Positions 29,882 through 34,406 of a stretch of 64,000 bases of DNA are shown here, piece by piece; position 1 is the first letter of the stretch, and every line of letters starts with the position of its first letter. Source of the stretch: Pectobacterium colocasium (lineage in GTDB: Bacteria; Pseudomonadota; Gammaproteobacteria; Enterobacterales; Enterobacteriaceae); contig NZ_CP084032.1 of assembly GCF_020181655.1 (NCBI RefSeq), positions 3,844,001-3,908,000 on the forward strand. Reading direction: 5' to 3'. Made by a program: the position numbers and the translations under genes. Under the pieces are notes generated by a model. That model saw only the letters and a program-made list of their open reading frames with translations, searched no databases and was not told where the DNA came from.

Positions 29882-31822
29882 ATGTTGGGACTTTCTTTTA
29901 AACACTGGGGCCTGGGTATCAAGTTATCGGTCATCGCTTCATTAAGCGTGGCGATACTTTTCATTGCGTTCACCCTATCCCTCACCCGCTCCGCAGGCAA
30001 TCAGCTCAAAGCCCTGACCCTCAACGACATGCAAAGCCAGGTGAATGGCGTCACCGACATGATCAACATGTACGATACCAGCCTGCAAGCCGAGGTCAGC
30101 AACTATACGCGCCTGCTGGCAAGCTTTCTGCCAACACAGTTTTCGCTGGATACCGTTAACCGCACGCCTTTCGGCACCACATCGCAACCAACGCTCAAGG
30201 CTGGCGATACGGTATTGAACCTCAATACCGAAGTGCCGGACGACTTTCTGAGCCGTACTCACGCGATCTCAACGATTTTTGTCCGTGATGGAGACGATTT
30301 TACGCGCGTCACCACGTCACTGAAAAAAGAAGATGGATCGCGCGCAATGGGCACCAAGCTCGATCGCGAAAGCCCAGCCTATGCGCTCGTGGTAAAAGGT
30401 GACACCTACAGTGGGCTAGCAACGCTATTCGGCAAACAATACATCACCCAGTATCAGCCGATACGCGACAGTGCCAATAAGGTTATCGGCATTCTTTTCG
30501 TCGGTGTCGACATCACGAAGCAGTTTACCGAGATGCAACAAACGATTCTGAACAAGAAAATAGGTGAGACAGGCCATTTCTTTGTTCTTAGTACGAAAAA
30601 AGGAAAAGATGCGGGCAACTATCTTTACCACCAAAGTAATGCCAACCAACGCCCTGACTGGTCAGAAGGGGCGTTAGAGAAAGTGTTGGCAACCGGTAAT
30701 GGGACGATCGAATACGACAACAACACGATGACGGGTGAAGAAAAAACCCGAATCATGGTGTATCGCAGCATTCCACAATGGCACTGGATTGTTGCGGGAG
30801 CCGTAAGCAAAGAAAGCCTAATGGCTGAGGTTAATGACACTCGTAATTTATTTTTGGGTGGCGGCATTATTCTGGTTCTGCTCTTCGCTGCATTCTTTGT
30901 CGTGCTGACACGTAAATGGCTGAGCCAGCCGCTGGTTGAAGTCGTCAAGGTGGCGGAACAGTTTTCTGCCGGTAACCTGACAGCAACGCTCTCCACCGAT
31001 CGTACCGACGAAGTAGGTCGCCTGATTAATGCCATTAACGGCATCGGACAGGGGCTGACCACCATTGTGTCACAGGTGAGAAACTCGGCAGAAGAAATCA
31101 GCACCGCGACCGATGCATTGGCTGCCGATAGCGAAAACATCAGCGAGCAGATTGCCCGCCAGGCCAGTAGCGTCGAAGAAACCTCTGCCAGCATGGAGCA
31201 ACTCTCCGCCAGCGTGAAGCAGAACGCCGACAACGTCTCCGCCGCCAAAGGGCTGGCAGAAGAGAGCGCCGCAGCGGCACGTAACGGCAGCCAGACCGTC
31301 ACCGACTCCGTCTCTACGATGAGCGACATCAAGAACTCCTCACAGCGAATTGCCGATATCACGACGGTGATCGAATCTATCGCGTTCCAGACCAATATTC
31401 TGGCGCTGAATGCGGCAGTTGAAGCCGCTCGTGCGGGTGAGCACGGCCGAGGCTTCGCGGTGGTTGCTGCGGAAGTTCGCGCGCTGGCACAGCGCAGTTC
31501 TACCGCCGTGAAAGAGATCGAAACCCTGATTGATGAGTCGCTGGAGAAAATCGAAGCGGGTTACCATTTCTCAGAAAAAACGCAGGCGGTAATGGATGAT
31601 TTGCGCAACCGCATCTTGCAGGTCAGTACCATCGTGAACGATATTGATATCGCCTCACGCGAGCAGTCCGCCGGGATTGGCCAAGTGAATATCGCGATTG
31701 TACAGATTGGTCAGGCAACGCAGGAAAACACCATTCTGGTCAACAACTCGGAAGACACCGCACAGAGTCTGCGCCAGAAAGGCCATCACCTCAGCGAACT
31801 GGTCAGCGTCTTCCGTATTTAA
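29882..31822 (+). CDS. Methyl-accepting chemotaxis protein, Cache sensor (MCP-B)
   Basis: A 646-residue chemoreceptor. TM1 is at about 12-33. A large extracytoplasmic double-Cache-type domain spans about 34-320 (Cache3/Cache2-like, with [13 protein letters not shown] and [10 protein letters not shown]). TM2 lies at about 322-342, then HAMP and the signalling hairpin with [24 protein letters not shown]. Cache domains usually bind small organic acids, amino acids or similar; the ligand cannot be told here. No CheR-tether pentapeptide. It is followed by a 13-bp stem hairpin. Confidence 0.93.
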
Positions 31823-31835
31823 GCTGGTGAGCTAT

Positions 31836-31876
31836 CCGCTTTTGTGCCGCTACTTTATCCTGTGGCGCAAAAGCGG
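31836..31876 (+). terminator. Hairpin after MCP-B
   Basis: A 13-bp stem with one G-T pair: CCGCTTTTGTGCC / GGCGCAAAAGCGG, loop of 15 bases, starting 14 bases after the stop. There is no T-run, so it may act as a 3' stabiliser or a weak terminator. Confidence 0.55.
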
Positions 31877-31890
31877 GAAAACACATCACG

Positions 31891-31920
31891 GCCATCGTGT
31901 TGCAGATATTGCACGATGGC
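31891..31920. promoter_or_regulatory. Palindrome upstream of rtcB2-prfH
   Basis: GCCATCGTG (31891-31899) is perfectly matched by CACGATGGC (31912-31920). It lies about 70 bases before the upstream ORF of the rtcB2 operon. It could be an operator for an activator, or an RNA hairpin; nothing in the sequence decides. Confidence 0.4.
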
Positions 31921-31984
31921 TCCCACTTGCGTATTATGCCGACGTTTTTTCACCCATCCCCCAACTGACAAAGGAGACGACATC

Positions 31985-32029
31985 ATGACAACCATTACTC
32001 TGATTCTTTGCAGGACATCTCGGGACTAA
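31985..32029 (+). CDS. Possible 14-residue leader ORF before rtcB2
   Basis: ATG 31985 follows AAGGAG (31971-31976) with an ideal 8-base spacing, the best Shine-Dalgarno in this segment. The peptide is MTTITLILCRTSRD, ending TAA at 32029. The real rtcB2 ATG is 83 bases downstream with only a weak AGGA. A leader peptide controlling the rtcB2-prfH operon is a reasonable idea, but such a short ORF can occur by chance. Conservation among related genomes would decide. Confidence 0.35.
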   Translation: MTTITLILCRTSRD

Positions 32030-32112
32030 TTCCGCATTCTTTTCCGCTTTGCGTTATCCCCCCAGCTGTAGCCTGCCTTACCCTATTTTTAAATTGATCA
32101 GCAGGATGATCT

Positions 32113-33234
32113 ATGGGCAATGCTATTCGCTCTATTTCGGCGCGCGTCAGTGTGATCGCGACTGAAAATACCTGGATTGAAGATAAAGCAATCCAACAGC
32201 TTCACATTACATCACAACTTCCCGATATGGTTCGCGTGGCCGGTATGCCAGATTTGCATCCGGGACGCGGCTACCCTATTGGCGCCGCCTTTTTCTCACA
32301 ACAGCGCTTCTATCCGGCGCTGGTTGGCAACGATATCGGCTGCGGCATGGCGCTATGGCGCACTGGCCTTAATGCCAACAAGATTTCGTTGGATAAGCTG
32401 GAAAAGCGGCTTGGTAATATCGATGGTCCACAGGAAGACGATATCGAAATTCCCCCATCGCTGGCGGATTTCCGCTATTCGCTGGGCACCATCGGCGGCG
32501 GTAACCACTTTGCGGAATTACAGCAGCTTGATGAAATCTATCAGCCAGATGCGCTGCACGCTCTGCACATCGATCCTAAACAACTGTTGTTGCTCGTTCA
32601 CAGCGGCTCGCGAGGATTAGGGCAAACCATACTGGAAGCCCACGTGCGAGAATTCGGCCATCAGGGGCTTGAAGCCAACACGCCTGCCGCACAAGCCTAT
32701 CTGGAACAGCACCAGTTCGCGCTGACGTTTGCCACCAATAATCGGCGGCTGATCGCACAGCGGATGCTGGATCGCTGGCATACGGAAGGCGATGCCGCAC
32801 TGGACGTGAACCACAATCTGGTGACACCGACAACGATTGAAGGCATTTCCGGCTGGCTGCACCGCAAAGGCGCAACGCCTGCCGACTGCGGCCCGGTCAT
32901 CATTCCCGGTTCTCGTGGCGACTACAGCTATCTTGTGCAACCCATTCCTCACGCAGACAGCCTGTATTCGCTGGCGCATGGCGCAGGCAGAAAATGGATG
33001 CGCACGGAGTGTAAAGATCGGCTGTCTTCACGTTACAGCGTTCAGCAACTGGCGCGAACCCGCTTCGGCAGCCGCGTGATTTGTCAGGACAGGCAGCTGA
33101 TTTTTCAGGAAGCGCCCGAGGCCTATAAACCGATAGACAGCGTGATCGGCGCGATGCAGCAGGCGGGATTAATCACGTTGATTGCGCGCCTGAAACCGGT
33201 TCTCACTTACAAAACGCGCGGGGAGGATAAATGA
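32113..33234 (+). CDS. rtcB2: RtcB-family RNA ligase, RtcB2 type
   Basis: A 373-residue GTP/Mn-dependent RNA ligase that joins 2',3'-cyclic-phosphate or 3'-phosphate ends to 5'-OH ends. RtcB metal and guanylylation motifs are all visible: [24 protein letters not shown] with its metal Cys, GGGNHF, HSGSRG, and [12 protein letters not shown] with the nucleotidyl-accepting His. It is shorter than canonical RtcB (about 408 in E. coli). Its ATGA stop/start overlap with prfH is typical of the RtcB2-PrfH pair, reported to repair 16S rRNA cut in the decoding centre. Neither rtcA nor rtcR is next to it. Confidence 0.9.
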
Positions 33235-33854
33235 TATTACTTCAGCTCTCCGCCGCGCAGGGACCGGAGGAATGCATGCTGGCAACGGCAAAAGCGTTGC
33301 AGGCTCTGGCACAGGATGCAGCACGGCAAGGTATCGAATGTGACATCATCGAAACCGAAGCAGGAAAACGCGCCGGTACGCTGCGTTCCGCACTGGTGCT
33401 GCTAAACGGTGACCAAGCGGAATCGCTGGCTGCTAGTTGGTGCGGCACGCTTCAGTGGACCTGCAATAGCCCCTGGCGTAAAGGTGGCGGACGCAAGAAC
33501 TGGTTTATCGGCGTCGCGCGCTTTCATCAGGAACAGGCGTTTGCCGATAACGAGATTCGTTTTGAAACCACGAAATCCTCCGGCCCCGGCGGACAGCATG
33601 TGAATAAAACCGAATCTGCCGTTCGCGCCACCCATGTCGCCAGCGGCATCACGGTGAAAGTGCAGAGTGAACGCAGCCAGCACGCAAACAAGCGTCTGGC
33701 CTGTTATCTCATCGCCTATCGTCTGGAAGCGTTACAGCAACAGCAGCATGCTGAACTACGGGCACAGCGGCGTCTGTTCCACCATCAGATCGAACGCGGC
33801 AATCCGGTAAAAGTCTTCAAAGGCGAAGATTTCACGCTGGTCACGCCGCGCTAA
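33231..33854 (+). CDS. prfH: Release factor homologue PrfH
   Basis: A 207-residue class I release factor relative with the catalytic GGQ at residues 120-122 inside [17 protein letters not shown]. It lacks the full codon-recognition domain of RF1/RF2 (about half their length). PrfH is reported to release the nascent peptide from ribosomes whose 16S rRNA has been cleaved in the decoding centre, after which RtcB2 religates the RNA. It overlaps rtcB2 by four bases (ATGA). A strong terminator follows, so the operon holds just these two genes plus any leader ORF. Confidence 0.92.
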
Positions 33855-33863
33855 CCTCAACTC

Positions 33864-33896
33864 ACGGGCGGGCACCGACTGCCGCCCGTTATTTTT
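33864..33896 (+). terminator. Rho-independent terminator of rtcB2-prfH
   Basis: The 8-bp stem ACGGGCGG / CCGCCCGT followed by TATTTTT. Confidence 0.87.
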
Positions 33897-33970: not shown

Positions 33971-34406
33971 ATGAACATCGTGCGGATACTTTTCTTACCC
34001 TTAATACTGATGCTATCGGGCTGCCAGATCATACAAGGAAAGCCTGTCGCGCCACCGCCGCCCGCGGAGAACGCCCTCGAAATTCGCTATGCGCAAACCA
34101 GCCAGTTGGAAAAAAATGGGGACGATTTCGGTGAGCATGCGCGGAAACGCAGATGATGTAGATCGCGCCCTTCAACAAAAAGCCGATGCCTCCGGTGTGA
34201 TGCCGATCGTTTAAGAACCGAGATACCGGGGGCTACCACGGTGCGAGGTATCCCTGCGGGAACCTCATCACCGTGTTTCCCCCTAAATCCACGCTTAAGT
34301 GAACAGTATTAATGCCTCCGGTGCGCGCTATTACGTGATAGTGCTGAAATCCGAGGCCGCAACGCTCCCCGGCATGTGGTTCGCGCGTGCCGTGCTGTAC
34401 CGCTGA
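33971..34406 (+). pseudogene. bsmA: bsmA (yjfO) lipoprotein, broken by frameshift and MITE
   Basis: The start encodes a lipoprotein signal (MLSGC lipobox) and a PPPPAEN segment like the E. coli biofilm/stress lipoprotein BsmA (YhcN/DUF1471 family). At 34110-34116 an A7 run shifts the frame; with A6 the reading continues as MGTISVSMRGNADDVDRALQ and on to KADASG. At that point the 114-bp MITE copy 2 is inserted and brings stops. After the element and its 12-bp duplication the domain resumes as GARYYVIVLKSEAATLPG and ends TGA at 34404-34406. Two independent lesions make it almost certainly non-functional. Confidence 0.87.
34198..34311. mobile_element. 114-bp MITE, copy 2 (inside bsmA)
   Basis: It starts TGATGCCGATCG and ends CAGTATTA, with three differences from copy 1 (969-1082). 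The exact 12-bp target duplication ATGCCTCCGGTG lies at 34186-34197 and 34312-34323. Removing the element and one duplicate restores the bsmA reading order, proving insertion. Confidence 0.92.

Follow-up and report, generated by a model that had tools for sequence, protein, structure and literature searches.

A candidate leader attenuator for damaged ribosomes upstream of the rtcB2-prfH operon of Pectobacterium

In Pectobacterium colocasium (RefSeq assembly GCF_020181655.1) the rtcB2-prfH operon is preceded by a short leader open reading frame (ORF) and by RNA segments that can pair with each other in alternative ways. We analysed this operon in a window of 64,000 nucleotides (contig NZ_CP084032.1, positions 3,844,001 to 3,908,000; coordinates below are those of the window). 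On the basis of modelled pairings we propose, with a probability of about 0.7, that rtcB2-prfH is a rescue-and-repair operon under a leader-ORF attenuator, which senses ribosomes that are able to initiate but unable to elongate. Defence by the RtcB2-PrfH pair against colicin E3 damage is already known. The new part is the leader upstream of rtcB2, which the first-pass annotation of this DNA, made from sequence alone, did not mention.

The most likely reading of the leader, as judged from the folding models, is a switch of the following kind. At rest, segment 1, which holds the Shine-Dalgarno site of the leader, would pair with segment 2 inside the leader ORF, and segment 3 would pair with the ribosome-binding site and first codons of rtcB2, so that rtcB2 would be poorly translated. 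An intact ribosome would cross the leader of 13-16 codons and, near its stop codon, cover segment 2, leaving segment 3 on the rtcB2 start (the OFF state). A ribosome whose decoding centre has been cut, or to which a drug has bound, would initiate on the leader and halt within the first few codons. There it would cover segment 1, the freed segment 2 would capture segment 3, and the rtcB2 start would open for the remaining intact ribosomes. PrfH would release the stuck peptide, and RtcB2 would then rejoin the 16S rRNA. Ribosomes cut by colicin E3 initiate at about 75% of control, about 15% of them make a pentapeptide, and essentially none is expected to pass about 8 residues (PMC2615495). Since they halt early, they would be trapped about where the model opens the operon, and the leader looks suited to sensing them. 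We infer that this is how the switch works in Pectobacterium and that it responds in nature to ribotoxin damage. Other early-elongation blocks should act as inducers too; the truncated rtcB2 of E. coli K-12, ykfJ, is reported to be inducible by 4-azaleucine (PMC3516279).

Segment 1 (31965-31976; all four segments, like the leader ORF, read on the plus strand) comprises CUGACAAAG and the Shine-Dalgarno site of the leader ORF, AAAGGAG. The ORF that follows this site (31985-32029) has 14 codons and encodes MTTITLILCRTSRD. Within it lies segment 2, CUUUGCAGG (32006-32014), which is complementary to both segment 1 and segment 3. Segment 3 (32064-32078), made up of GCCUGC (32071-32076) and its neighbours, can take as its partner either segment 2 or the rtcB2 start. 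The latter is contained in segment 4 (32096-32131), which covers the rtcB2 ribosome-binding site, start codon and codons 2-6, and whose AGGA (32103-32106) sits in a GATCA/TGATC hairpin. Across leaders, the general forms are CUGCAAAGGAGG or similar for segment 1, CUUUGCAGRC for segment 2 and GYCUGCC for segment 3. A promoter-like site, TTGCAC-17-TATTAT, is predicted on the plus strand 47 nt 5' of the leader ORF (31909-31937); similar sites occur in 29 of the 33 leaders with sufficient upstream sequence, compared with a fraction of 0.26 of shuffled ones (five leaders were too short and were left unscored). Its -35 box is overlapped by an inverted repeat read from the sequence, GCCATCGTG...CACGATGGC (31891-31920), a possible operator or hairpin, whose arms and loop, including the loop length, differ by eye between Pectobacterium species.

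The leader is widely conserved. By a fixed rule for the ORF, its Shine-Dalgarno site and the following RNA, which was written after the sequences had been seen, it is present in 103 of 106 gammaproteobacterial loci (among them 28 Pectobacterium loci from 20 genomes, eight of which were fetched twice) and in none of 10 non-gammaproteobacterial loci. Its spacing is close to invariant: in the 103 leaders, segment 2 lies 18, 20, 21 or 24 nt from the leader ATG, and the distance from the start of segment 2 to the end of the stop codon is 24 nt in 97, 22 nt in 4 and 27 nt in 2. Examples come from E. coli, Klebsiella, Proteus, Providencia, Morganella, Xenorhabdus, Serratia, Brenneria, Lonsdalea and Tahibacter, and also from genomes of other families of Enterobacterales. 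The 20 aligned Pectobacterium sequences are nearly invariant from the leader Shine-Dalgarno site to rtcB2. For 18 of them (L068, which contains a run of N, and L069, whose rtcB2 is broken, were dropped), mean identity is 98.0% over the 146 nt before rtcB2 compared to 69.9% at 140 fourfold degenerate rtcB2 sites. The first 30 nt of the rtcB2 coding sequence are identical in these 18, and L069 differs there at a single base in the alignment of all 20. Judging from these sequences, the RNA rather than the leader peptide seems to be conserved, since four leaders (L101, L103, L106 and L180, the last on an IncC plasmid and the others in genomes G030, G160 and G061) keep CTTTGCAG in another reading frame.

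We built a covariance model, R1, from 24 leaders. In searches that scored part of the candidates (125 per genome in Pectobacterium, 7 per genome in the order), it scores at least 86 bits in 21 of 25 Pectobacterium genomes, always at this locus, with the next best match at 21.8 bits. Among 394 genomes of the order, its 26 best matches lie upstream of prfH (25) or, on a split contig, upstream of rtcB2 (1), and five weaker matches also adjoin prfH (G030, G036, G038, G061, G196). R1 recovers leaders outside its training set in Proteus, Morganella, Serratia and families f7, f8, f10, f13, f15 and f27. We found no wider R1 regulon; the three weaker matches examined (L200, L201, L202) precede unrelated ORFs and have no rtcB2 or prfH match.

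Do the segments pair as proposed? The pairings 1:2, 2:3 and 3:4 are mutually exclusive, as in the erm/cat attenuators. We swapped partners among 28 leaders, letting each search range over a whole region instead of fixing the site, and for all three pairings the cognate partners outscore the swapped ones: z -3.41 (7/20000) for 1:2, z -8.26 (0/20000) for 2:3 and z -2.83 (77/20000) for 3:4. The last becomes z -3.23 (13/20000) with 20 nt of coding sequence included and z -3.36 with the coding sequence alone. In alignment A3, the 2:3 helix has 11 cells changed on both sides, compared with 3.5 in shuffles (0/500). For 1:2, a C-G pair is replaced by A-U in Xenorhabdus and there are several wobble changes; when each of 38 leaders is given its best register, 25 form 8 of 8 pairs and 12 others form 6 or 7. 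The leader of the window forms 8 pairs with one bulged base.

We then modelled the ribosome as a block of unpaired bases and calculated the cost of opening the rtcB2 start (-13 to +13). For 26 leaders the cost is 12.3 kcal/mol on free RNA; a ribosome placed at the leader start lowers it to 11.0, and one placed at the stop raises it to 14.7. The difference between stop and start is 3.65, as against -0.17 with a shuffled spacer (P=1.5e-7; 25 of 26 leaders above control), and for the Shine-Dalgarno site alone it is 1.95 as against -0.07 (P=2.6e-6). The start-bound cost is below the stop-bound cost by more than 0.2 in 23 of the 26 leaders and below the free cost in 20. As the ribosome moves along the leader, 2:3 pairing starts at 0.91 (codon 1), declines unevenly and reaches 0 at codon 7. 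In the leader of the window, the opening cost is 9.3-9.5 for codons 1-4, 13.6 at codon 5 and about 15 from codon 9, so that the modelled switch falls between codons 4 and 5; the OFF helix extends here into rtcB2 codons 2-6.

A number of results weigh against the proposed switch. The groups in the swap tests are phylogenetically non-independent, and the leader RNA taken whole has no exceptional stability (z +0.75; of 200 shuffles, 153 fold as well or better). The 1:2 helix shows no excess covariation in alignment A3 and scored better there when slid by one column; we put this poor covariation down to register, an A-run being misaligned. In L118 of Xenorhabdus, outside the list of 38, pairing of CTGCAAAG with CTTTTCAG leaves a mismatch in 1:2. 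Two f27 leaders with long spacers, L086 and L095, were left out of the ribosome modelling, which used 26 of 28, and L095 forms no 1:2 pairing in the model. The start-stop effect is nil or reversed in L141, L156 and L158, and start-bound RNA is no cheaper to open than free RNA in L082, L122, L127, L143 and L074, the leader of the window. With scoring restricted to the rtcB2 Shine-Dalgarno site, the leader of the window shows no change (5.2 free, 5.6 start, 5.2 stop), and the wider scoring region that includes the first codons was chosen after this negative result. With that region, opening the rtcB2 start of the window costs about as much on free RNA (9.4) as with a ribosome at the leader start (9.9), so the model of the window supports closing by completed translation more than opening by a stall. 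With respect to distribution, the rule misses three of the 106 loci: L097 matches rtcB2 in part, L115 has the ORF but lacks segment 2, and L120 has 100 nt of upstream sequence. R1 adjoins prfH or rtcB2 in 31 of the 44 genomes of the order above the PrfH cut-off, is weak on L180 (18.7 bits) and L115 (16.3 bits), and does not rise above chance in 15 more distant loci, where its best match has 13.9 bits. Because the genome searches scored part of the candidates, there may be further copies elsewhere.

The alternative that survives best keeps the same sensor and places its output in transcription termination, intrinsic or through Rho, instead of rtcB2 translation, as has been proposed for the Pseudomonas leader PA5471.1. 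The Pseudomonas model uses a 3:4 terminator (PMC13041342), and in three clostridial loci the leader ORF is followed by a terminator-like hairpin before rtcB2. In the window, however, a pattern scan found no strong terminator-like site between the leader ORF and rtcB2; the sole plus-strand site there is a stem of 5 pairs (32021-32034), and the scan as a whole is at shuffle level (9 sites compared with 7.2, sd 2.4). By eye, the U-run of Enterobacterales leaders lies several nt past the 2:3 hairpin, and the 3:4 arm pairs with the rtcB2 start. We consider termination an unlikely output here, though one to be taken seriously.

It is clearly less probable that this is an ordinary RtcB2-PrfH pair whose upstream conservation reflects promoter and untranslated-region elements, with no switch. 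The global leader fold, no more stable than its shuffles, would suit this idea, and so would the absence of modelled change at the Shine-Dalgarno site of the window when scored alone. It sits poorly with the fact that ORF start, segment 2 and stop stand at almost constant distances in 103 of 106 loci, with the preference for cognate partners in the swap tests, with a ribosome-position effect that vanishes on spacer shuffling, and with the inducible leader documented for a Pseudomonas homologue (PMC12057347, PMC3516279). Equally improbable is a nascent-peptide or amino-acid sensor, in which the peptide (mostly ...LCR/LCG/LFR...) would arrest the ribosome or read a charged tRNA in the manner of ErmCL, SecM or trp-type leaders: most leaders share a second half of the form [LIF][CF][RG]-xxx-[QDEKS], many use AGG/AGA Arg codons, and in the Pseudomonas leader the choice of codon makes a difference at two positions under impaired tRNA maturation (PMC13041342), but peptide-sequence sensing is disfavoured by the four frame-changed leaders, which keep the nucleotides and encode FAG or FAD, by the Gly in place of Arg in Morganella, Proteus and most Providencia leaders, and by several Xenorhabdus leaders, though not L118, that couple a Cys-to-Phe change with a change in segment 1.

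The attenuator that we favour may extend beyond the gammaproteobacteria. In the clostridial loci L166, L167 and L172, an ORF scan, a terminator scan and inspection by eye find a leader ORF and then a terminator-like hairpin, and L168, L169, L173 and L170 have a similar appearance on inspection. Under a looser ORF rule that carries no chance estimate, a short ORF preceded by a Shine-Dalgarno-like string is seen in five of seven alphaproteobacterial records (two Methylosinus, Tritonibacter, Rhizobium and Shinella); this looser rule found none in Novosphingobium, in Skermanella or in the sole actinobacterium, Nonomuraea. The clostridial and alphaproteobacterial leaders, judged by ORF scan, terminator scan and inspection, are leads rather than results. 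It is tempting to hypothesize, at what we take to be even odds, that RtcB2-PrfH operons of several phyla carry a leader ORF as a damaged-ribosome sensor, on which decoding-impaired ribosomes, caught near the start codon, would induce their own repair; the output would be translational in Enterobacterales but transcriptional in Clostridia and Pseudomonas, and the antibiotic-inducible armZ leader would be one derived case. If the switch works as proposed, the leader offers a direct answer to the question of how cells notice cut ribosomes early enough to make the repair enzymes: the broken ribosome is itself the signal. The clinically studied armZ leader would likewise join a wider family whose other members precede rRNA-repair genes.

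The genes under this leader are well identified, and here most of what the first-pass annotation had described is borne out. On the plus strand, rtcB2 (32113-33234; 373 amino acids) encodes an RNA ligase of the RtcB family that scores 623.7 bits against TIGR03073 (cut-off 271.8) and 585.8 bits against NF007153/PRK09588 (cut-off 407). It is followed on the same strand by prfH (33231-33854; 207 amino acids), encoding the GGQ peptide chain release factor H, with 330 bits against TIGR03072 (cut-off 166.65). Both genes thus exceed their NCBIfam cut-offs, and the two reading frames share the ATGA overlap, as described. PrfH is a short form without domain 1 and contains the motif SGPGGQHVN; the nearest solved sequences, 7sa4 and 9mor, are both annotated PrfH. 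The suggestion that the operon has its own terminator agrees with a probable intrinsic terminator read from the plus strand at 33864-33896, a GC-rich hairpin with a T-run, which is absent from our terminator scan list, in which loops of up to 8 bases are permitted. The reported lack of rtcA also holds: a whole-genome search with RtcA (TIGR03399) gave no match at E <= 0.001. Two additional RtcB-like frames lie elsewhere in the genome. The proposed family and the role in defence against colicin E3 agree with the published E. coli pair, which protects against colicin E3 in vivo and in which the cut 16S rRNA is reported to be ligated by RtcB2 (PMC9223846).

The operon was described as lying between a chemoreceptor gene and a decayed bsmA, and the profile matches of the flanking genes confirm this. 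The chemoreceptor gene (29882-31822) lies upstream of the leader, and the bsmA remnant (33971-34156, plus strand) has 61 codons that match positions 2-47 of 98 in NF011433 with 51.5 bits, below the cut-off of 100. A further suggestion, that the operon had been inserted in the former yjfP-bsmA interval, is weaker than first put. The pair does lie in that interval and is absent from 5 of 25 Pectobacterium species genomes, all 25 of which have yjfP; a bsmA match occurs in 19 of the 25 loci. In the 20 genomes that carry rtcB2 (broken by a frameshift in G020), the pair always lies between the first chemoreceptor gene and the bsmA/rlmB side. The five genomes without it point to loss and not to recent gain, as four of them keep short pieces of the operon: G007 the leader, rtcB2 residues 1-70 and the end of prfH, G009 and G002 52 and 24 nt of the 3' part of prfH, and G013 a 44-nt match (84%) at the prfH stop and terminator. 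In G021 we found no remnant at the site. Recent insertion is thus rejected for Pectobacterium; going by the pair at one site in 20 of 25 genomes and the remnants in four of the other five, rtcB2-prfH seems to have been in Pectobacterium for a long time and to have been lost on more than one occasion. The rlmB-yjfP interval of Brenneria and Lonsdalea also contains the pair, turned the other way (rtcB2 is split in the Lonsdalea record), so that entry into this interval may predate Pectobacterium or may have occurred twice. In E. coli the pair lies between yafP and pepD. There is no Dickeya among the 71 loci found by a search with six peptide patterns, which reached close relatives only.

Several further observations concern the locus and its variants. 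Eight of the 20 pair-bearing Pectobacterium loci (L053, L054, L055, L059, L068, L069, L072, L073) have an extra 0.5-0.9 kb between prfH and bsmA, with an opposite-strand ORF of about 150 amino acids and, in five of the eight, a further ORF of 111 amino acids. In some species (L057, L072) the chemoreceptor genes next to the pair are split or lack an internal part. A short intergenic repeat (ATAATTCGAGTTGCA...CTTGAAGTATGACGGGTAT and variants) occurs in the leader spacers of L117, L159 and L179 and also upstream of the promoter, at the 5' ends of Pectobacterium sequences such as L053, L059 and L060. Matches to the E. coli leader occur in 5343 of 5426 complete E. coli genomes, including listed records with a partial match and no rtcB2 annotated there. 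On an IncC conjugative Klebsiella plasmid (L180, NZ_CP086440.1, 3001-4712), rtcB2-prfH and its leader lie between qnrA6 and sul1, and the pair therefore travels with a resistance region. Two loci, L084 (G044) and L085 (G362), have prfH with no rtcB2 match in the 1.5 kb upstream and no R1 match in either genome. In L206 (G779:C5:81346-81945), a PrfH match lies inside an open frame of 676 residues, possibly a fusion, with no rtcB2 match in the locus. Two scans of a viral contig collection found no carrier of the pair, and one record of a phage collection, 4.8 kb long and without annotation, covers 98% of PrfH. In Rfam 15, the region 31700-32300 of the window has two matches, both far below the gathering score.

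How does the leader compare with known systems? The RtcBA operon, under RtcR, is also a case of an RNA repair ligase induced by damage; it differs from the present operon in that no RtcA match is found in this genome. In the translational attenuators of erm and cat genes, a leader ORF is followed by alternating segments, and a stalled ribosome frees the downstream start. The ORF at 31985-32029 is likewise short, has its own Shine-Dalgarno site and lies upstream of the gene. Translational attenuation has been described for ermC (PMC10219788). Here, in contrast, the proposed cause of the stall is a ribosome whose elongation is impaired and which halts near the start codon, not drug-dependent arrest by the peptide, and segment 2 would mask the Shine-Dalgarno site of the leader itself. 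The E. coli RtcB2-PrfH pair (PMC9223846) has the same two families, order and overlap, and the E. coli leader (L178) has the same segments; the words "leader" and "upstream" do not occur in the main text of that paper, nor does "leader" in PMC1586002. In the open-licence literature, as far as its text was available, we found no description of such a leader outside Pseudomonas, and a 2025 review calls leader control of the anti-repressor apparently unique to MexXY (PMC12057347). The closest parallel is the P. aeruginosa operon armZ(PA5471)-prfH(PA5470), with the 13-residue leader PA5471.1, which is induced by ribosome-targeting antibiotics and in which codons 3-4 are implicated (PMC3516279, PMC12057347, PMC13041342). 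Like ours, it combines an RtcB-like gene of the PRK09588 cluster with prfH and has a short leader ORF upstream of the operon, a likeness drawn from published descriptions of PA5471.1. It differs in being described as transcriptional attenuation, which the 2025 review says needs confirming. The leader of Pectobacterium and its relatives is apparently a new, translational variant of the control known for Pseudomonas armZ, which suggests that leader-peptide control is general to RtcB2-PrfH.

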